IMG/VR virus record: IMGVR_UViG_3300025104_000004
Span: 1-31,480 of that record
Reading direction: 5' to 3' (one strand)
DNA length: 31,480 bases
From: a virus
Shown here piece by piece: positions 2,854-23,288 of this stretch; within the stretch, counting starts at the first letter, position 1, and every line of letters begins with the position of its first letter. The translations under genes and the position numbers were made by a program. The notes under the pieces were generated by a model. The model saw only the letters and a program-made list of their open reading frames with translations, was not told the DNA's origin and did not search any database.

Positions 2854-5800
2854 CACTCAACCCCCACAATCTGCAAGGCAAGCGAGTATATTCTGTCCGC
2901 ATCTGGAGCGTTCATATCGATATCACTATCAACCTCGATAGTGTCAATGCCAACCCTTGCTCTCAGGCAAGTATTGGGGTAATTAACATTAGGCAGAAAG
3001 TAAAAAGGCATATCATTATTTTTCTTTAGGTAATCTATCATGTCAATTAATGTAAGGTAATCATCATTCGTGATGAACGAGGCATAATTAACGCTATATC
3101 CTTTATTCACATGACTATACAAACTATAAGGTTCTCTTGAATCTGTCCGTACCATTTGGTACCGTGTCATCGGCTTAATCCTATCAGCATCAAGCGATAG
3201 CCTTGTTACTCTCCCCAAGAAAACATACCCTATCTCTCTTGTGCCTGAAGGTAAGAGAAGTCTGTAATATTGAGCCTCGATTGGCTCCTCTAAGTATAAT
3301 CTGCATATCAAACTACTGACAGTAAGGATATCATCAAAGACGAGCGTAGCAAAGTCAGGGACATTAGAGGCTTGGAATCTTACAGATGTCAAGTTGTGCC
3401 GATCTATCACAAGAGCATCAATCGTTACGGGAGTCGAGAAGCTAAATACAATATTGCCTGTGCCTTTCCATTTGCTGCGGGTCGGAAACAGCAGATTAGC
3501 CACTTTGTTGGTTTGTATGCAAAGGATTTCCCACGCATCATCAACCACAAAAGACGGGCTGACTCCAAAACTGAAGGCGATTTCAAGCCCATCGTGTAAT
3601 GGCTGATATTCCTTGCTGATATTGGCAGGTGATGACCAACTGCCGCCTTCCTCCCTCCAGACGAACCGTCCGCCCTCTACGCTGAATTCGAATACATCGC
3701 CAATCGCAAACGGCACGATACCATCGGTGATCTTAAAAGATAGATTAGTATGGCTATATGGCGCTGGATTGCCTCTGTCAAGATAGTAGTTTGGAAATGC
3801 TTGATCGCCTTTCACTTCAAATACGTATGTATTATCACCAGTGACTCCGCCGTGGAAGTGAATATTCTGCTTTGCCACCGTTGGCAGGTATGTTATGTCT
3901 CCTACTTGATAGGTTTTGTTAATACTGTCGGCTGATATTTTTACTTCTATTTTGTCGCCCTCAATAAGTGTCCCTCCGCAAGGCACGGAGATATGAAACG
4001 CAAACTCTTTAGTGTTCTCGTATCTCACATCTCCGTCCGGTAGCTGCATCTCAACAGTCGAGTAATACGGTGTATCCGTGAACGCAGGCAGATATGCCTT
4101 ATCGCCTATCACATCCCAATAATATTCTGCGTCAGGGTCGTCAATGTAGCAAGTGCCGCTTATTATACTATTTTTTTTTAAGCCATGATATCGTTCATAT
4201 TCAAGGATATCATCCACGAGCGTGCCGTGTAATACTAAATTAAATGAAGTGTCTGCAACATGAGCCCATGATGTATCCAATAATTTATTCCATGTTCCCA
4301 ATTCGTCATTCCATGATATCGAGGGTGGTTCACTCCCTAAGCATGTCCACACAGCATCACCATCATTGACAGTCTGATTTTTTGTAGTGGGCCATGTTGG
4401 TTCAGTGCTTCCTGAACGCCCACTCGTTGTCTGCAAGTAATAATATGCAACTGAGTTGACTGTTCTTTTTATTATTAATGCGTTGCCGGATGAAGAAGGC
4501 AACCAGCTATCTGAAATAATATAGTTACCAGTCAAACTCTTAACCAGCGATTTGTAATCATCAACTTGTTTTTCCAGTGCGGGATAATACATTACATTCG
4601 TCCATACAGCTGTCCCATCATTGACGGTCTGATTTTTTATAGTGGGCCATGTTGGTTCAGTGCTTCCCGATGTTCCCGCTGTTGTGCATTCAAAGAGATA
4701 CCACTTATCAGATGCCATGCCTCTTATTATATCTCCTGCCACATAGCTGGTAGATTTGCGCCATATCTGAACAGATTCTTCAGGAGCAACCATAATGCGT
4801 TGCGCTATTTTCTTGAACATATTGAAGTAGCTTGTTGTTGCAGTCACAAACGAATTTTCGTATAATTCACGGGCGGAAGACGCTTCCCGCATTCTATCAT
4901 ATATCGCATCCGTCCAAAATATTAAATCAGGAACTGTATTAGCCATTTCTATCTCACCTCCTTCCTCGTTTAATCCGAGACATTTATCGCCAAACCGAAT
5001 TGTAGGACATAAACAATCGGCTGGTTTCTTCTTATATTCCAGTGTTAATGTTTGCGCTTTAGCATTGACGCCCAGCCTCATTTTAAAACATATCGGCGGT
5101 GGCGTTACACCAATTCCTCTCGTAGCATATTTAACAACATGTTTCCAATTCTCACGCTCTCCTGCGGACAATTTCGGTAACCGTTTCGGGATTGTGAACC
5201 CCACGAAGCCAAAGCCCGCTCTCTCTCCTGTTCTTGCCTCTCCCATTCTTCCTGTTGATGAGCCTGAAACTTCCCAAAGCTCACTACCGACAATTTCATT
5301 ATTGATGCACTCAATCTTTATTAATTCTGTTTTTGCATTGTTGTTGATATAGATGTTATCAAGCTGACCAGCGTATTCACTTGATTTATCTGCCTTGTAT
5401 GGCATGAGAAAATAAGCATCTGTTTTCGTGGCAAACTCACGGCAGGCAGGGCTGTCTATAGCTCTTGAGGTGTCAATAACCATTGGACTTTCTATTAATG
5501 TAGATTTGGCTTTAACTTCTCTCCAGAAGTCCGCAATGGTAATTATGTTTGTGTATTCCTCTGTTACCGCACCTTTGATAACGGAGATTTTTCTACCGCC
5601 TGTTACAAAATAAACACTTTTCCCTGTTGGCACATCTTGCCTGATTGGAGTGATAAAATAATACTTCCACTTACCTTCTTCAAATTTCTTGTATTGCAAA
5701 TAGATATTAAGCCTATCCTCTCCGAATGCAATTCTCTTTGCGGTAAGAGGCACTTTATCGCCTTGCAAGGCCACTGTTTCATAATCCCACTCTTGCCCTT

Positions 5801-14511: not shown

Positions 14512-14961
14512 AGTTCTTTCCTCCTTCTTTTTTGAACCGTTTAAACCGTTTGACCCGTCTTCAAACTCTATAGTCAATCCGCCGTCATCGCCAAAGGCGA
14601 AATCGGGCAGCCCCTTAATAGCAGGCGGCATAGCGCCTAAAAATCCAATATGCCGCAATGTCATATCGGGATATAGCGAAATAGAGCGCTTCTTGAAAAG
14701 CCCTCTTTTAACCATATCCACAAACTCCGGGACTAAGTCTTTGAGCTTTGCGTAAAGGACGCTGCCCTTGCGCTCCAATCTCTCCACCCATCCGTATGCA
14801 GGTGCGTTGTCCTTCGGATGCCCAATCACAACCGGTGCCTCGTGCTCTTTGTGGTTGTATTTCTTGACGATGGCGTCAAGGTCTGCCTCCGTCCATGTCC
14901 TGACGTTGCCGTTTGAGTCCGTGTGAGTGCCTGCTTTGAAGACTGCTATCCAGTCATTCAT
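13897..14961 (-). CDS. Head maturation protease with in-frame scaffold (Mu gpI/gpZ-like)
   Basis: The 354-residue protein cleaves head proteins during maturation. The N-terminal protease part holds VVIGHPKD (His48), KKRSISLYPD (Ser93/Ser95) and LRHIGFLGAMPPAIKGL (His104 region), the conserved blocks of the Mu gpI serine protease. Residues 151-354 are the scaffold, with a long charged coiled coil (~190-265). Between them a degenerate 9-bp repeat has inserted in frame and encodes DGSNGLNGSKKK (136-146). ATG 14961 overlaps the gpG stop as ATGA. A second, internal start makes the scaffold alone. Confidence 0.87.
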   Translation of the reverse strand: MNDWIAVFKAGTHTDSNGNVRTWTEADLDAIVKKYNHKEHEAPVVIGHPKDNAPAYGWVERLERKGSVLYAKLKDLVPEFVDMVKRGLFKKRSISLYPDMTLRHIGFLGAMPPAIKGLPDFAFGDDGGLTIEFEDGSNGLNGSKKKEERTMKFFDWIKGHAAKEGVTIEDAPPTFSESEVLTKVSEALKEKEREFEEKQRQIDAELRAREDAIRLKEAEFQKMEIEQFMEGLRKKGIITPAMEKLGMGITQFMQAIAPISTTVEFSEGDAKKNQTPLEFMKAFLSSLPSQIEFREIAGSAKDIGGTGTAESRLDAKTREMMKAKNVSYAVAFAEVQKENSELAQEYASELRGGK

Positions 14962-15464
14962 GTTATCCGCCCCCCTTCCAACAGATAAGTTTTCAAGGCA
15001 TCTTTGATATCTGTCATGTCCCCATCAGTAACCTTAAGAAACGGTCTTGCGGGGATGTTTCTTGCAGGCAGGCGGGCTTTCTTTCTGAAGATAAATCCCT
15101 GAGCCGTCGGTATCTTAAGAGCCTTAGCATTTTTGGGGGTTATTGTCAGTGCTGGAATTCCGCCCCCGAATTGATGCACCGCCGCATAGGCTTTGTTAGT
15201 GCCTACCTGAGCGGAGTTTCTGTCATATCTCGATGAGATAGAGCTTGCAAGCTGTCCCGTATCCTGCAATGTTTTGCCTCCCTGCTTGAGCGCACGAATT
15301 GAAGGCTTCCACTTGGGGCGTCCTTCCTTTTCAAAGTTCTCCTCTACGGCATCGTGCATTATGCCCGCAACTTTTTTCATAACAGGACTCATGTCTTTGA
15401 GCCTGCCCTGTAGGTCTTTGAGCAGGGTCTGGACTTTTCTGTCGTCAATGGTGATTTTAATCAT
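14958..15464 (-). CDS. Virion morphogenesis protein, Mu gpG-like
   Basis: This 168-residue protein starts MIKITIDDRKVQTLLKDL, then PVMKKVAGIMHDAVEENFEKEGRPKWKP. It is the standard N-terminal pattern of gpG/tail-completion proteins (nF, P.W blocks), followed by LQDTGQLASSISS and YAAVHQFGGG. The start at 15464 is chosen by homology and has GGAGG 11 bases upstream. A second ATG at 15581 with GGAGG 8 bases upstream would add 39 residues that do not look like the family and are read from the antisense of the RNA gene below. The choice is therefore not fully certain. The stop overlaps the protease start. Confidence 0.83.
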   Translation of the reverse strand: MIKITIDDRKVQTLLKDLQGRLKDMSPVMKKVAGIMHDAVEENFEKEGRPKWKPSIRALKQGGKTLQDTGQLASSISSRYDRNSAQVGTNKAYAAVHQFGGGIPALTITPKNAKALKIPTAQGFIFRKKARLPARNIPARPFLKVTDGDMTDIKDALKTYLLEGGRIT

Positions 15465-15468
15465 CGTC

Positions 15469-15495
15469 TTGACAACCTCCGTTTTGTGGTATAAT
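15469..15495 (+). promoter_or_regulatory. Plus-strand promoter with exact consensus -35 and -10
   Basis: TTGACA (15469-15474) and TATAAT (15490-15495) both match the sigma-70 consensus at every base, with a 15-bp spacer, slightly short of the optimal 17. It points against all phage genes and would start a transcript near 15502. It overlaps the first codons and ribosome binding site of the gpG gene. No other exact pair of this quality was noticed in the window. Confidence 0.75.
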
Positions 15496-15501
15496 ATTGG
15501 T

Positions 15502-15607
15502 GGAAGGTTGGAGCGAGAAGCTGACTGGTGAACAGCGCCTATAGTCAGTGGAAGTTCCGGTATGGCTGTTCCATACGACATGGAAGGGACCTCCAACCTT
15601 TTATTTT
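15502..15607 (+). ncRNA. Compact three-stem RNA with a predicted kissing loop, antisense to the head operon
   Basis: This plus-strand RNA of about 105 nt fills the gap between the gpF and gpG genes. The closing stem P1 pairs AAGGTTGGAG (15504-15513) with CTCCAACCTT (15591-15600), 10 perfect pairs. Hairpin P2 pairs CTGACT and GGTG (15521-15530) with CGCC and AGTCAG (15536-15548, 3-nt bulge) and has the loop AACAG. Hairpin P3 pairs GTATGG with CCATAC (15560-15576), loop CTGTT, with TTCC/GGAA as a possible lower stem. The two 5-nt loops are exact complements. An exact-consensus promoter precedes it and a U-rich tail follows. No known family is recognised. It could regulate gpF/gpG in cis or act in trans on the host. 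Confidence 0.7.
15591..15607 (+). terminator. Terminator of the plus-strand RNA
   Basis: The 3' arm of the closing stem (CTCCAACCTT) runs straight into TTATTTT, giving a U-rich tail of nine bases with one A. The stem encloses the whole RNA rather than a short loop, so termination may depend on the complete fold. It overlaps the gpF stop codon on the other strand. Confidence 0.55.
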
Positions 15608-16920
15608 CCATAAAGCAATGCTCCTACCCTTTGCTTATTCATAGTTCTATCATTCGCCTGCATGATATTCCAAAGCAGGCTGCCGTCTTTGTTTAGCCTG
15701 ACTACGACAAGCAGATTTTCCTTGCCTGTAAAGAGTCCGATGTATCGTTCTCTCAAGCCGTCCTGATACTGTGTCAGATATATCTCATACGGATCGGTCA
15801 ATGCAGGGATTAGGTAGTTGGCATATCTTTCTCTTGGGTCAGTCTGTTTTCCCACAAGATGCGGTATAAACTCGGCTCGTAAGACAACCTGTTCTATTGG
15901 GGTCTCAATAATCCTATAGGGTTTTTTTTGCAGTTGGAGGGCATCGAGCATGATGAATGCAGCCTCTTCACGAGTTTGCGCAGCTTTTAGTAATGGCGGC
16001 GCAATTATCCTTTTATCATCGGATATGTGCCTTAAATCAGGTCTGCCGTAATCTTTCCATGTCTTTTGTCCTTTGAGAATTTTTACGCATCCGCTTTCTG
16101 TAAACCGCATGAAATTAAAACCCCCGGGGCAATCAGGAAGAAGACCATTTTTATCCCATCTGCCCCACTCCTTTCCCGGATTATAGTTCCATCCTACATC
16201 AGGGGATATCTTTTCCCCGGTAAACGGGTCGTCATAGACGGTGACAGTCGCCAGCTCGCCTGTCTTTTTAGAGACAAGGACATCTTTTTCAGTGAGTTTG
16301 CCGGTGGAGTCCGATACAATATTCCTTCTGTCTTTGATGTTTTTCTCAGACAGAGCCCTCACACGGCACCGGCAGCGAAAGCCCAGAGGCGGATAATGCG
16401 TGTTCCAGAAGGGGTCGTCATACCTGAAGACCTTGCCGTTTAGGGCGGCATGGGCGGGACGTGTCCTTGAATCCATAACGGCTACATACTGCCAGTATGG
16501 GCGGTCATCCACATTGTTCATCATCTCTTTATACCTGCCTGCCATGTATGCCGTCTGGAGGTTTGTTTGATAAATAGTCTTAAGCCTGTGCGGAGAGCCA
16601 AGCTGCACCTGCATAGCTCCTGTCTCATCCCCTACCATCTTCTTTCCCCACCAGCCTTTAGCTTTGAGCTTTGGCTCAAGCTCTTTTCTGAACTGCTCAA
16701 AGGTAATGCCATCGTCAATAGCTTTTTGTACCATGCCTCTGATGTCCTGAAGGATGTCCATCCGCATTGCTTTGGCTACTGTGAACGCCTTCGCGTGGGC
16801 TTCTTGCCATATATCGTGCCAGTCCCATGAGAAGGCATAGCCTTTGCTTTTAAAGTATTCAATAGCCTTCTCTGGAGGCAGCCCTATGGCGTATGATAGG
16901 TCAATGTTATTTATTGGCAT
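15601..16920 (-). CDS. Mu gpF-like minor head protein fused to a PBECR-type nuclease domain
   Basis: The 439-residue protein has two parts. Residues ~50-195 are the gpF/SPP1 gp7 minor head domain: helices, then VMDSRTRPAHAALNGKVFRYDDP and YPPLGFRCRCRVRALS with Cys183 and Cys185. Residues ~330-439 resemble the phage-Barnase-EndoU-ColicinE5/D-RelE-like (PBECR) toxin fold: VVLRAEFIPHLV (His354), DPRERYANYLIPALTDPYEIYL, GLRERYIGLFTG and a final NKQRVGALLYG. Such domains are known to ride on gpF-type proteins and are thought to be injected RNases. ATG 16920 has GGGTAGG just upstream and overlaps the portal by 14 bases; a GTG at 16941 lacks a binding site. Confidence 0.83.
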   Translation of the reverse strand: MPINNIDLSYAIGLPPEKAIEYFKSKGYAFSWDWHDIWQEAHAKAFTVAKAMRMDILQDIRGMVQKAIDDGITFEQFRKELEPKLKAKGWWGKKMVGDETGAMQVQLGSPHRLKTIYQTNLQTAYMAGRYKEMMNNVDDRPYWQYVAVMDSRTRPAHAALNGKVFRYDDPFWNTHYPPLGFRCRCRVRALSEKNIKDRRNIVSDSTGKLTEKDVLVSKKTGELATVTVYDDPFTGEKISPDVGWNYNPGKEWGRWDKNGLLPDCPGGFNFMRFTESGCVKILKGQKTWKDYGRPDLRHISDDKRIIAPPLLKAAQTREEAAFIMLDALQLQKKPYRIIETPIEQVVLRAEFIPHLVGKQTDPRERYANYLIPALTDPYEIYLTQYQDGLRERYIGLFTGKENLLVVVRLNKDGSLLWNIMQANDRTMNKQRVGALLYGK

Positions 16921-18409
16921 TAAGCCTACCCCACAGCTCACTTACAAAAATAGCCCTTGCAAGCATTTCTTCAATTGCCTTTGTGTCCATATCTGGATAT
17001 GTCTCTATAAGTTTTTCCATCACGGCGTTGTGATCACCGCTCTCATTGATGAGGTCAATGATGGGTTTCAATATGCCCTCCATTTGCTCTTGCAGCTGCT
17101 CGGGCGTGATGGAATCAATCGCATCATCAAGAGTCTGCTGGTCAGGATACTGCTCGAACTTAGCGCTGAAATCAGAAGTCTCTCCTTCCGCGCTTCCGAG
17201 CTTCCGAACTGCCTGCAATACTTCCTCTCTACCTCCTACAATCTCCTCCCCTTTCTTCGGCTCTGGGATTGCATAAGTCTGATAAATATAAGACAGCGGG
17301 ATAGGCACACCCATCCGTGCAAGTATCTCGTCCCTCTCTGCTAATGGCTTTGTGTCCTTTTCTTCCTCATATCTTATCCAGACCTTTGGATATCCATGCC
17401 TTCTGTCGGGGGGCGGGAAGTTATAATCTACTATCCAACGTATGAGCTGGTTGTTCTCCGCCTCGCACAAATTGTCTGCATCCGCCTTGATGTAGTCCTT
17501 TCTTACCTCCTCATGGATCCTTGCGGCTGCATAGCTGCCTGAACTGCCGATTTCGCTTGATAACGTCTGACCCAGAATTATCTGCGCTATCTGTCTGTCC
17601 ATATAGTCGCACAGAGATTCATAAGTGTTGACAGTGCCGGCGCGTTGAGCCTCAAGATACTCGATTGCCATATTGTCCGGTATCTTGATTGCCGTCTCCT
17701 GCTGTATCGCCTCCAATGCCGCAAGTAATGCATCCTGCTGTTCTTTGGATGTCCCCTGCGGATACTTGCCTATCGTTGTCGGTGAGCCGAACTTTTCAGC
17801 GAATATCATCCAGAACTTGATCGCATTCTTCTTAAACCACACAGGCCAGTAAAGCAGCCTGCCAAGTCCGTCCCCGTATGGCGAGCCGTTGTCTGATGGA
17901 TTGACAAAGACCTGAAACTTTCTGTCGGGCAGCTCCTCTCCTTCAATCATATTTGATATAGTTAGCAGCCGGAGTTTGTGGTCTTTATCAAAGACGAATC
18001 TCTTTGAGGCGCGGGGGATTATTTTTTCAATATAGACGTCCCCTTCAGAATACCCCCACATTATCTCTGCCGGCTTAAAGCCCAGCACTATCCCTGACAG
18101 GGCTGCCATTCTATATCCGTCATAGTTAATAGACTTCAGGACTTCCTTCACATATTCGGCGATCTTCACATCCTGCCGTTTTTCCGTTGCGGGCAGCACT
18201 TCCCACTCCTTGCCTACAACTGCAAGCTTGCGGGTCTGGAGAGCGGAGCCTACCTTCGCCTCTCTGAGTAAATCTTCGTATAGTTCTATCCCCTTGCCCG
18301 CTGATTCGGATTTAAGCACCTTATCAGGATTTAGAATCGTTTTTCCGATGTAGTCATGAAAGATGTCCTTCTCTATGCCTGCTATTTCGTCTGTTATGGG
18401 TTTTTCCAT
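16907..18409 (-). CDS. Portal protein (Mu gp29-like, DUF935)
   Basis: The 500-residue portal forms the dodecameric DNA gate. Typical DUF935 blocks are visible: residues ~30-80 (LYEDLLREAKVGSALQTRKLAVVGKEWEV), ~155-200 (KFQVFVNPSDNGSPYGDGLGR, WPVWFKKNAIKFWMIFAEKFG), ~270-305 (DRQIAQIILGQTLSSEIGSSG) and IRWIVDYNFPP (~340). AGGGG lies about 8 bases before the ATG. Around residue 400 the code REEVLQAVRKLGSAEGE comes from a degenerate 8-bp tandem repeat at 17184-17208, an in-frame host-type insertion. The 11-base gap to the terminase and the overlap with gpF fit one operon. Confidence 0.9.
   Translation of the reverse strand: MEKPITDEIAGIEKDIFHDYIGKTILNPDKVLKSESAGKGIELYEDLLREAKVGSALQTRKLAVVGKEWEVLPATEKRQDVKIAEYVKEVLKSINYDGYRMAALSGIVLGFKPAEIMWGYSEGDVYIEKIIPRASKRFVFDKDHKLRLLTISNMIEGEELPDRKFQVFVNPSDNGSPYGDGLGRLLYWPVWFKKNAIKFWMIFAEKFGSPTTIGKYPQGTSKEQQDALLAALEAIQQETAIKIPDNMAIEYLEAQRAGTVNTYESLCDYMDRQIAQIILGQTLSSEIGSSGSYAAARIHEEVRKDYIKADADNLCEAENNQLIRWIVDYNFPPPDRRHGYPKVWIRYEEEKDTKPLAERDEILARMGVPIPLSYIYQTYAIPEPKKGEEIVGGREEVLQAVRKLGSAEGETSDFSAKFEQYPDQQTLDDAIDSITPEQLQEQMEGILKPIIDLINESGDHNAVMEKLIETYPDMDTKAIEEMLARAIFVSELWGRLNANK
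17184..17208. repeat. Degenerate 8-bp tandem repeat (CTTCCGnG) inside the portal gene
   Basis: CTTCCG recurs three times at 8-bp steps (plus-strand reading). The same family occurs at 20072-20106 and 28067-28110. Here it is read in frame as part of a linker near portal residue 400. Confidence 0.7.
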
Positions 18410-21240: not shown

Positions 21241-22032
21241 TTAATAGCTTGCTATTTCAATATCCAAAGATGGCAAGCCCGTAGAAGTTGAGTCTGACGT
21301 GACAACTACATACAAAGCACTGTCCTCAAATACTTGCCTCATCCCTGTGCGCGACATATTGTGAACATCTCCTGCATTTGCAGCTATTACCCTGCCTTCC
21401 CAAAGCTTACGTAGAATCATGACATTGAAAGTGCCTGCCGTAGAACCAGAAGATGTTACAACATTAATCCTCTGCAGCCCGGTGTCACCAGACTGTAAAG
21501 GCAGCCTAAGCATACGACCGACTATCGGAGCAACGCCTGTTGCAATAGTGCCTGTATCTCCTGCATTGCCGTCTTGATCAAGATATTGCACTCGTATCGA
21601 CTGATTGCCCGTGAACGCTGTTACCGCCTCTATCCACAACTCCAAGCCTCGATAATCTGCGTTTGGTATTCTCGACGCAAAGGACGGTTGAGAGGTAAGC
21701 GTAATATTAGCATCAAAGTTATACGCCCCCGCCGCGAATACCCTGTCATACAATGCGATTCTACATGCAACCGAATTTGAAAAAACGACCCTTGAAATGT
21801 AACCGGTCGCACCAGACAGGAAATTTCTTATATGGGGATATCCAGCCGTTGCGTCTGTTGGCACTAAGCCATTCGCTGTGTTTCCGATTGCAAGCGCCCC
21901 TGCGCCCGGATTGCCGGCAATATCGAACATCGTGAACGGTATATTCGCAACAGAAGTTCTCGCTGTTGTTTTATGATATGGTATTACTTGCTTAACAGAC
22001 GCTAACCAATCATTTACGTTATTTATAGCCAT
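21241..22032 (-). CDS. Putative virion structural protein, 263 aa
   Basis: The product starts MAINNVNDWLASVKQVIPYHK and continues with IPFTMFDIAGNPGAGALAIGNT. It then has strand-rich Gly/Thr/Asn-rich segments (TGYISRVVFSNSVACRIALYDRV, ALYVVVTSDSTSTG). Proteins with the NPGAGA block and this composition are common in virion gene clusters of dsDNA phages, often near receptor-binding genes; function is not established. ATG 22032 with GGGGGAG just upstream is preferred over the earlier in-frame codon at 22044. It overlaps the preceding gene by 10 bases. Confidence 0.72.
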   Translation of the reverse strand: MAINNVNDWLASVKQVIPYHKTTARTSVANIPFTMFDIAGNPGAGALAIGNTANGLVPTDATAGYPHIRNFLSGATGYISRVVFSNSVACRIALYDRVFAAGAYNFDANITLTSQPSFASRIPNADYRGLELWIEAVTAFTGNQSIRVQYLDQDGNAGDTGTIATGVAPIVGRMLRLPLQSGDTGLQRINVVTSSGSTAGTFNVMILRKLWEGRVIAANAGDVHNMSRTGMRQVFEDSALYVVVTSDSTSTGLPSLDIEIASY

Positions 22033-23288
22033 GTCTCCCCCCATGCAAATAAGTCTTGCGCTGTTACCTGAGCAGGTAAGTATTTATCTACTAAGTCTGA
22101 CATTGTTATTACCGGCACTCCTGCTGCTGCAACAGCGTCAACAAATGTATTAAAGTTCGTAGTTAAATATTGATATTCAGTTGGCGCTGCTGTTACAAGC
22201 CTGTGAAACAAAATGCAACCAAGCGATTTGGTCGCCTTTACATTTGCTATCCATGTCTGTAGATCTGCAGTGCTTGTTGTATTTATAACGCTTGCGCACT
22301 GAAGATAAGCAGGCGCAAACAAGGGGACATTTGACATGCCAAGATTTACCCCGAAAGCCCCCGCTCCCCTGCCAATCAGATGATGCTTTAAAACAACATT
22401 AAATGCTGTCTCATTAGCTACCCCGTATGGATATGCAAAAAATCTCGCCCCTGACGCAAAACCGTTCTTGCTAAGATATTGCTTTAGAGATACTACCTCC
22501 TGCATCATTTGCGCCTCCGTTAACGTAGTAAAATCTGCATGAGTCCACGATTGACATGATATATCCCAGCCCACATCCTGCATAGCCTTCATTTGCGCTA
22601 TCGTCAATCTGCCCGACTGCCCGATTTGGTTTCCTACTACATAAGCTACCGCCCTATACCCATACTCATCAAGTTTAGGCTTGGCATAAATAAAATCGCT
22701 GTCGTGGCAGCCGTCAAAGTTAATCATAATTGCGCCGTTTGTCAGCGCAGAATGAGCCACCCTAATTTCGTCAAAATTAAGAGTTGCAGTATTAACACTG
22801 CCTATTGCTTCAATCATGATAGTTGCAATATTGCCAAAGTTTGGGTTTCCTGTTTTTGTCATTGACTCAATTGGGAAAACAATGTTAAACCATGCGTTAT
22901 TTGGATAGTACGCCACGTCAACGCCGAAAACTGCAAAATTGCTCCAGTTAGGCGCAAGGACAAAGATAAAGATGCCTGTTATCGTGCTTGACTTCTTGAG
23001 CCATATTGAGAGCGTCTTTCCGCTGCCGTTTACACTCATATTCTTGTAAGCAACTGCGCGATAGCTGCCTGATGTTGTCGTAAGCCTACCCGACTTTGTG
23101 CCAAATCTGTAATCAGTCGTATCCCATGCAAAAGTAGCCACTTCTTGCGTCCAGCCTGTCTCTACCGCATCAAGCAAAGAGATATTAGGGTGTGCAAATA
23201 TCTCTATCTGTATGCTTCTTCGCTCGATAATGTGCTGGGCTACATTAGCCAAGTCTTGATAGTCTGTATCAGTGCCGAGATAGCGCAT
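22023..23288 (-). CDS. Polysaccharide-deacetylase-like (NodB-fold) receptor-binding protein with N-terminal CBM-like domain
   Basis: The 421-residue protein has a jelly-roll, carbohydrate-binding-like segment (residues ~45-180; WLKKSSTITGIFIFVL, LNFDEIRVAHS) followed by a NodB-like barrel. Motif 1 reads MINFDGCHDSD (190-198) in place of TFDDG, motif 2 reads GWDISCQSWTH (240-250) with Gln246 where the first metal His is usual, motif 3 is FAYPYGVANE (284-293) and motif 5 is ILFHRL (His362). It most likely binds or de-N/O-acetylates host surface polysaccharide during adsorption. The changed motif residues mean activity is unsure. It lies within the fibre block and is followed by the 263-residue virion protein. 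Confidence 0.75.
   Translation of the reverse strand: MRYLGTDTDYQDLANVAQHIIERRSIQIEIFAHPNISLLDAVETGWTQEVATFAWDTTDYRFGTKSGRLTTTSGSYRAVAYKNMSVNGSGKTLSIWLKKSSTITGIFIFVLAPNWSNFAVFGVDVAYYPNNAWFNIVFPIESMTKTGNPNFGNIATIMIEAIGSVNTATLNFDEIRVAHSALTNGAIMINFDGCHDSDFIYAKPKLDEYGYRAVAYVVGNQIGQSGRLTIAQMKAMQDVGWDISCQSWTHADFTTLTEAQMMQEVVSLKQYLSKNGFASGARFFAYPYGVANETAFNVVLKHHLIGRGAGAFGVNLGMSNVPLFAPAYLQCASVINTTSTADLQTWIANVKATKSLGCILFHRLVTAAPTEYQYLTTNFNTFVDAVAAAGVPVITMSDLVDKYLPAQVTAQDLFAWGETWL

Follow-up and report, generated by a model that had tools for sequence, protein, structure and literature searches.

The window analysed here, the complete 31,480-base virus record IMGVR_UViG_3300025104_000004, belongs to a Mu-like transposable phage, and the genes for its MuF head protein gpF and for gpG are separated by 136 nucleotides (nt; positions 15465-15600). 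What does this gap between two head genes hold, and to which of its neighbours does the content belong? The original prediction had placed an undescribed structured RNA with kissing loops there, on the strand opposite the operon. Our analysis supports such an RNA and links it to a partner that had been missed: gpF ends in a PBECR2 nuclease domain, a predicted endoribonuclease (endoRNase). We consider it probable that the RNA is an antisense-encoded tRNA mimic acting as the antidote to this virion-borne predicted nuclease, in the manner of a type III toxin-antitoxin system.

The gpF gene occupies positions 15601-16941 on the minus strand and encodes 446 amino acids (aa; Phage_Mu_F, E 3.4e-29), with its stop codon at 15601-15603. 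Residues 339-444 (15610-15927, minus strand) match the PBECR2 profile (PF18810, E 1.3e-20) and are the proposed partner of the RNA. PBECR2 is treated as a predicted endoRNase domain in passages of PMC5512222. The downstream neighbour, gpG (Phage_tail_S; PF05069, E 7.7e-27), lies at 14958-15464 on the minus strand with its ATG at 15464.

All elements of the RNA are on the plus strand. The predicted antisense promoter consists of an exact -35 hexamer TTGACA (15469-15474), inside the gpG leader, and an exact -10 hexamer TATAAT (15490-15495) directly preceded by TGTGG. The spacer between the hexamers is 15 nt; the optimal sigma-70 spacer is 17 nt. The small structured RNA spans 15501-15610 by its covariance-model match, with a predicted transcript from about 15502 to 15608. 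Sequence, fold and alignment point to a closing stem P1 of 10 base pairs (bp), formed by an acceptor-like 5' arm AAGGTTGGAG (15504-15513) and a 3' arm CTCCAACCTT (15591-15600). Within it, the P2 hairpin has a 5' arm at 15521-15530 (P2a 15521-15526, P2b 15527-15530), the loop AACAG (15531-15535) and a 3' arm with a UAU bulge at 15536-15548 (P2b 15536-15539, P2a 15543-15548). The P3 hairpin (15560-15576) has a stem formed by 15560-15565 and 15571-15576 and the loop CTGTT (CUGUU in the RNA; 15566-15570). The two loops are complementary and form the putative kissing pair. P1 is followed by the U-rich tract TTATTTT (15601-15607), which overlaps the stop and last codons of gpF. The 136-bp gap, the exact hexamers, the 10-bp stem, the two hairpins and the U-rich end are all present where the original prediction had put them. 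The last gpF codons GGA-AAA-TAA face the 3' end of the RNA; at 15601-15609 the C-terminal Lys codon stands opposite the U-rich RNA end, and Lys codons with antisense U-runs are also found in several relatives. Rfam gave no family match above cut-off in the window, and as far as the searches went the RNA is undescribed. An Rfam search of the gap at E up to 10 returned only two chance-level matches, neither of them tRNA, ARAGORN found nothing in the window, and a distant DNA search in phages gave chance-level matches only.

Searches with the window's gpG and gpF brought together 106 related loci on viral contigs, and profile searches added 80 loci from genome contigs and 77 new loci from viral contigs; 12 named phage regions were inspected as well. 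Individual loci are cited by their L numbers. Between gpF and gpG these relatives repeatedly have gaps of about 95-150 nt, whose sequences are mostly unrelated to one another. Thirty-five distinct RNAs were found behind nuclease domains of the window's type, and 13 of these were aligned, chosen by eye for a common core after the complementary loops had been noticed. RNAalifold placed 18 pairs on this alignment, with compensatory change in 17 of the 18. The P2 and P3 loops differ in sequence among the 13 RNAs and retain their complementarity, with 66 of 78 positions Watson-Crick when the P3 loop of rows W (the window) and L277 is shifted by one alignment column. Loop-loop permutations gave a mean of 38.8 (standard deviation 4.4) and a maximum of 63 in 200,000 (p <= 5e-6). 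Since the 13 RNAs were picked after the loops had been seen, a fairer check comes from automated tests in which the hairpins were found mechanically. These gave p 5e-5 with 35 RNAs and p 1e-5 with 33 RNAs, the paired loops not always being P2 and P3. At least five complementary loop bases were found in 10 RNAs of the 33-RNA test against 3.6 expected, with single permutations reaching up to 12. Outside the 13-RNA alignment, kissing pairs were identified by eye. Within the helices of the 13 RNAs there are 25 GU combinations and one AC, which favours the plus strand, with the caveat that the structure had been predicted on that strand. By minimum free energy (MFE), the RNA region is more stable (z -1.42) than the controls (0.04 and -0.38). 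Stems and loops alike show paired changes, the support that the original prediction had asked for.

Two covariance models were used to search the collected sources. Model R1, built from the 13 RNAs with the window in the seed, matched the window RNA with 59.8 bits (E 4.9e-11, as a seed member). Among 100 sources totalling 583,833 bases it made 24 matches, every one on the strand opposite gpF. Six contigs had been entered twice, so these matches represent 18 places, 13 from the seed and five from outside it (L286, L290, L303, L307 and L309). Nearly all adjoin the gpF stop; the match in L303 lies about 100 nt past the assigned stop. Model R2, built without the window (W) and L277, gave nine matches in 32 other sources, five at E < 1e-4 and four weaker, and one of the weak matches (L298, 3141-3246) is away from the gpF stop.

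The promoter also recurs. In many relatives the reverse complement of a sigma-70 promoter can be seen by eye close to gpG, with TGTCAA ahead of gpG in a number of them and TGTGnTATAAT in several. The best antisense site in the 200 nt after gpF was scored in 76 loci with a C-terminal extension of gpF and a gap of 85-200 nt. The mean score was 8.80, compared with 5.75 for shuffles and 5.91 for the sense strand; it was 4.08 in 24 loci with an extension but a gap below 60 nt, and 6.47 in 101 loci without an extension. Scores of at least 10 were reached by 22 of the 76 loci on the antisense strand, by one of 76 on the sense strand, and by five of the 101 loci without an extension. In the 22 loci, the -10 sits 73-119 nt from the gpF stop. 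The group difference is striking, and the individual sites are not. Together with the compensatory changes, the recurrent promoter upholds the claim of a real structured RNA on the plus strand, and the predicted fold, strand and promoter are supported by covariation and conservation.

The gap goes with the C-terminal extension of gpF. In these counts the gap is the distance to gpG and not the detection of an RNA. Removing short rows and rows with the same 80 nt downstream reduced the gpF set from 266 to 224; phage Mu (L108) was dropped in this step, its 80 nt downstream being the same as those of L078. Among 120 non-redundant loci with an extension of at least 130 aa, the gap is 85-170 nt in 73, longer in 16 and below 85 nt in 24, and gpG was not found in seven. 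With an extension below 60 aa (101 loci), it is 85-170 nt in two, shorter in 44 and longer in 39 (many about 830-850 nt), and gpG was not found in 16. This contrast, 73 of 120 against two of 101, links the RNA to gpF and not to gpG. In the Gastranaerophilales loci L157, L168 and L176, gpF has no extension and about 840 nt separate it from gpG, probably with an extra gene. In Alteromonadaceae phage B23 (L117, KY939598), no gpG is annotated between gpF and the I protein gene.

The gap also goes with the active site of the nuclease domain. In the MuF_C-like group (49 loci), all 29 loci whose gap is at least 80 nt have the catalytic His, and 17 of the 19 without such a gap have lost it (Fisher 4e-11, relatedness ignored); one further locus has the His, and gpG was not found there. 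Further MuF_C-like loci, counted without old, duplicate and gpG-less ones, comprise 16 with both His and gap and two with neither. L356 has no His, yet it has a gap, measured from an early gpF stop inside the domain. In the PBECR2 group, all 22 rows aligned from RNA-bearing loci have an invariant Arg, and the window domain keeps it. Rows without a gap have Ala at this site (L172 and L269), a deletion (L264, 55 nt) or the Arg itself (L274). A sample of 398 genomes yielded 29 PBECR2 loci, and gpG was located in 24 of them. The 23 with a gap of at least 105 nt all keep the Arg, and the sole no-gap locus, L370, has Gln there. L376 has His at the Arg site, and gpG was not found. In phage Mu, gpF and gpG overlap and Thr stands where the His would be; the Mu domain is described as inactive in passages of PMC5512222. 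When corrected for the tree, this evidence is thinner, with eight changes of RNA state and seven of His state. By sequence comparison, the RNA gap and an intact nuclease domain appear mostly to come and go together. The window nuclease domain, scanned as a single protein, brought up no relative, and PDB sequence searches with both nuclease profiles returned nothing relevant. The second nuclease model matches viral MuF-C and polyvalent proteins, and it found no PDB fold at E 0.001.

Co-inheritance was tested by partial rank correlation over 2,617 pairs from 73 loci. RNA similarity correlates with that of the nuclease domain (partial r 0.289, p 0.002) and not detectably with the gpF core (partial r 0.029, p 0.18) or gpG (partial r 0.025, p 0.22). 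The RNA also remains at the gpF stop where extra sequence precedes gpG (L004, L008 and L012). On this comparative evidence, the predicted RNA belongs with the nuclease domain of gpF, and gpG is probably not its partner.

Some loci carry the pair outside its usual place. At L008 (2503-3000), the start of gpG is fused in frame to a foreign PBECR2 tail, which is followed by a second antisense promoter-bearing stretch; this looks like a displaced nuclease/RNA cassette. L374 (open reading frame 909-1818, counted on the minus strand) and L388 (1071-1842, plus strand) each have a truncated PBECR2 followed by a complete one, no MuF core, and an RNA behind it with a fold read by eye. From their sequences, both appear to be arrays of nuclease cassettes. 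In L372, L373, L374 and L388, an RNA follows PBECR2 frames that have no MuF core in the same frame (folds likewise by eye). The RNAs at L010, L044, L127, L196, L235, L243 and L275 form a third class, whose common core resembles CACGGUGAA...CUCCC...GCCGUAG. It sits behind a third type of gpF extension, which gave no Pfam match in the member tested (L044).

A sister group of these RNAs resembles tRNA. Rfam scans of relatives covered 42 distinct loci and all RNA classes (48 scans, six loci twice). The matches above cut-off were to tRNA only, every one in the gap: RF00005, with a cut-off of 29 bits, was found in L061 (37.9 bits), L066 (31.8), L265 (35.9), L317 (46), L323 (35.6) and L337 (31.1). 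In alignment A8, a selection of 16 sequences from tRNA-like loci, the letters of the D-arm and T-arm are nearly invariant, and variable, mostly short loops stand in the position of the anticodon loop. ARAGORN found nothing in 49 relatives' loci. In eight further loci it reported a tRNA-Lys (L265, 4376-4450) and a tRNA of undetermined type (L317, 2102-2176), two of 57 in all, both antisense at the gpF stop. We do not count L265 as decoding, since its anticodon region can also be drawn as a stem of seven pairs with a loop of three bases. The 340-nt gap of L265 holds two tRNA-like RNAs, one at the gpF stop (4376-4450, minus strand, ARAGORN) and one further on (4605-4684, minus strand, Rfam). A T-loop motif occurs antisense in 21 of 90 loci with an extension and a gap (sense, one), in two of 24 with an extension and no gap, and in seven of 99 without an extension. 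Haemophilus phage SuMu (L111, JF832915) has a T-loop-bearing antisense RNA candidate in a 147-nt stretch after gpF where no RNA is annotated. By analogy with this group, we infer that the kissing loops of the window RNA may be the counterpart of the tRNA elbow.

The proposed mechanism is as follows. An RNA of about 100 nt would be made from its own sigma-70-like promoter, on the opposite strand right behind the gpF stop. It would fold with an acceptor-like closing stem and two arms whose loops kiss, comparable to the elbow that D-loop and T-loop form in tRNA, and could bind the nuclease domain as an uncleaved substrate mimic. In this way it would hold the nuclease off in the phage-producing cell or the prophage carrier. 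Carried in the virion and entering together with the DNA, the nuclease would act only where the RNA is lacking, or up to the point at which the incoming phage has made its own. Transcription, binding, inhibition, the tRNA target and injection are thus all predictions; a precedent for injection is offered by MuF and polyvalent proteins in passages of PMC5512222. A toxin whose antidote can be dropped after the toxin has been inactivated would be expected to leave such a link between the RNA gap and an intact active site; the tRNA-like form hints at a substrate mimic. Action in trans, which the original prediction had raised, is probable, as structure and kissing loops are kept by compensatory change. 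If the antidote reading is correct, the system would represent RNA immunity for a polymorphic toxin, encoded antisense, its tRNA-like fold indicating the target, and the recurring gap in Mu-like phages would be explained. A linked RNA that is lost with the active site makes two questions testable together, whether the domain is toxic and how the producing cell is protected.

Several observations weigh against this reading. The comparative pattern would also fit an RNA that activates the nuclease or is cut by it. Of the loci with an extension, 22 have gaps below 45 nt. In L020 and L024 the His is retained although there is no gap; in both, the domain is a chimera whose first half is like that of active relatives and whose second half is replaced, and the RNA gap is gone. 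In the PBECR2 group, L274 keeps the Arg without a gap, and L123 has His at the Arg site and a 58-nt gap. Five independent RNA changes fall on supported branches of the tree, four with the His, none against and one without difference (sign test p 0.125). The top row of a Foldseek/VIA search with the PBECR2 model, 6cp9, a BECR-type toxin, is weak (E 0.11, Z 2.5) and was not used as evidence. The window RNA itself has no match to RF00005, its tRNA likeness being drawn from the sister group, and, given the tRNA-Lys reported by ARAGORN, L265 may have a decoding loop. No loop-loop complement was found by eye in the RNAs behind PBECR2 of L294, L298, L301, L303, L304 and L306. The individual promoters are unremarkable (mean shuffle p 0.24 over the 76 loci), and the MFE z of the sense strand (-1.39) does not separate the strands. 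Model R2, at E up to 1, misses the window RNA, which marks it as a divergent family member; it is connected to the family through L008/L277 (81% DNA identity over 123 nt). In the window sequence taken singly, a promoter scan of the region gave two sites against 2.5 expected from shuffles, and the whole-gap fold is unexceptional (z -1.23). Trimmed to the stem (97 nt), the fold reaches z -3.29, the trim having been chosen after the stem was seen. The plus-strand MFE structure gives the P3 region another pairing, and the P3 of the original prediction is an alternative with alignment support. The evidence from the single sequence is therefore only suggestive by itself: the statement that the pattern is hard to explain as chance does not stand on the window alone, and it gains its force from the covariation across relatives.

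Among the rival explanations, the likeliest makes the RNA a cofactor or guide, which the nuclease needs for activity, targeting or packaging, with the virion delivering a ribonucleoprotein. Co-inheritance and the loss of the RNA gap with that of the active site fit a cofactor as well as an inhibitor. However, tRNA-like forms with a short loop in the anticodon position suit a substrate mimic, and the PBECR section of PMC5512222 describes no RNA need for enzymes of this fold, so we regard a cofactor role as rather unlikely. A related and slightly less likely version is a virion ribonucleoprotein effector, in which a head-assembled nuclease would depend on or be aimed by the RNA as its cofactor rather than its antidote. 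Control in cis, by antisense transcription or by pairing with the gpF-gpG message, could tune gpG or gpF in a type I-like manner or through the promoter collision on gpG that the original prediction had entertained. Throughout the gap, RNA and operon message are perfectly complementary, and the -35 lies within the gpG leader. Yet compensatory change conserves a structure and kissing loops that pairing does not need, RNA similarity does not follow gpG, the RNA stays by gpF in L004, L008 and L012, and the gap is usually absent where the nuclease has decayed or is missing. Control in cis is thus improbable, and the collision on gpG was discarded. The same fate befell an anti-Shine-Dalgarno role: the CCTCC at 15590-15594, which was said to be locked in the closing stem, is only partly within it, and a second CCTCC at 15476-15480 is the complement of the Shine-Dalgarno-like GGAGG of gpG itself.

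With its junction, closing helix and pair of complementary loops near portal and head genes, the RNA resembles a packaging RNA (pRNA) like that of phi29, whose intermolecular loop kisses form a ring at the portal. Such a role is very improbable here, as Mu and JBD30 have no room between gpF and gpG, RNA similarity is uncorrelated with the gpF core, and RNAs follow PBECR2 frames without a MuF core in L372, L373, L374 and L388 (by the folds read by eye). Hammerhead and twister ribozymes are reported in passages of PMC10085705 to be enriched near Mu-like phage genes, but no ribozyme family reached the cut-off in the window or in the 42 distinct loci, and a self-cleaving ribozyme has next to no probability. 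A chance structure, or a gpG leader overlapping a fortuitous palindrome, would accommodate a single-sequence promoter scan and whole-gap fold near expectation and the miss by the held-out model R2. It is contradicted by recurrence with covariation across divergent phages, and we give it just as little credence. Regulation of gpG, the anti-Shine-Dalgarno role, the pRNA and the ribozyme were accordingly rejected, the RNA tracking the nuclease and neither gpG nor the gpF core, and no ribozyme being matched. A coding extension of gpG was rejected as well. The open frame 15611-15464 shows little sign of being conserved as code, since the gap of L008 is 129 nt and its difference from 136 is not a multiple of three.

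The minus strand of the window encodes, besides gpF and gpG, transposase-like and MuB-like proteins, Gam, GemA, the large terminase, the Mu portal, a head-tail adaptor and a tape measure. A 421-aa protein encoded upstream of the terminase region (22023-23288, minus strand) has a Polysaccharide deacetylase domain (PF01522, E 4.5e-15).

The proposed antidote system can be compared with several known ones. The nearest in working idea are the type III toxin-antitoxin systems (ToxIN, CptIN and TenpIN), in which an RNA with tertiary structure is paired with an endoRNase, here a predicted one, and inhibits it directly. In passages of PMC5086642, those systems are sought by an array of tandem repeats ahead of the toxin gene, and pseudoknots are described. 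The RNA proposed here instead exists in one copy, lies downstream of the nuclease on the other strand and has its own predicted promoter, with no tandem repeats upstream. It has a tRNA-like or kissing-loop form and not an H-type pseudoknot, and its nuclease is a domain of a virion head protein. With the MuF polymorphic toxins (PMC5576092) and the PBECR domains of polyvalent proteins (PMC5512222), as both appear in passages of these papers, gpF shares the combination of a MuF core and a C-terminal PBECR2. Phage_Mu_F and PBECR2 share one frame, which follows Portal_Mu; the window also has MuB-like, Gam and GemA genes, and the toxin-like domain is predicted. The cassette remnants with RNA at L008, L374 and L388 resemble the exchange of MuF toxin cassettes. 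Passages of PMC5576092 lead one to expect immunity proteins for MuF toxins, mention many proteobacterial MuF extensions without known function, and leave open whether the proteobacterial extensions are toxins. In place of the expected small downstream gene for an immunity protein, the window has the 136-nt gap with its RNA, and then gpG. PMC3482391 also speaks of immunity proteins, and the terms 'rna antitoxin' and 'non-coding rna' are absent from the part covered. No RNA partner is named in passages of PMC5576092, PMC5512222 and PMC3482391, and among the literature matches listed, none reports an RNA as the partner of MuF or PBECR proteins. The likeness to the phi29 pRNA, a junction with two complementary loops near head genes, meets the difference that the RNA here follows the nuclease domain and not the head proteins. 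The likeness to tRNA lies in the six sister-group loci at the RF00005 cut-off and in the D-arm and T-arm letters of A8. Unlike tRNAs, the sister RNAs mostly have no 7-nt anticodon loop and are encoded antisense behind gpF, and the window RNA has kissing loops in place of a tRNA match.

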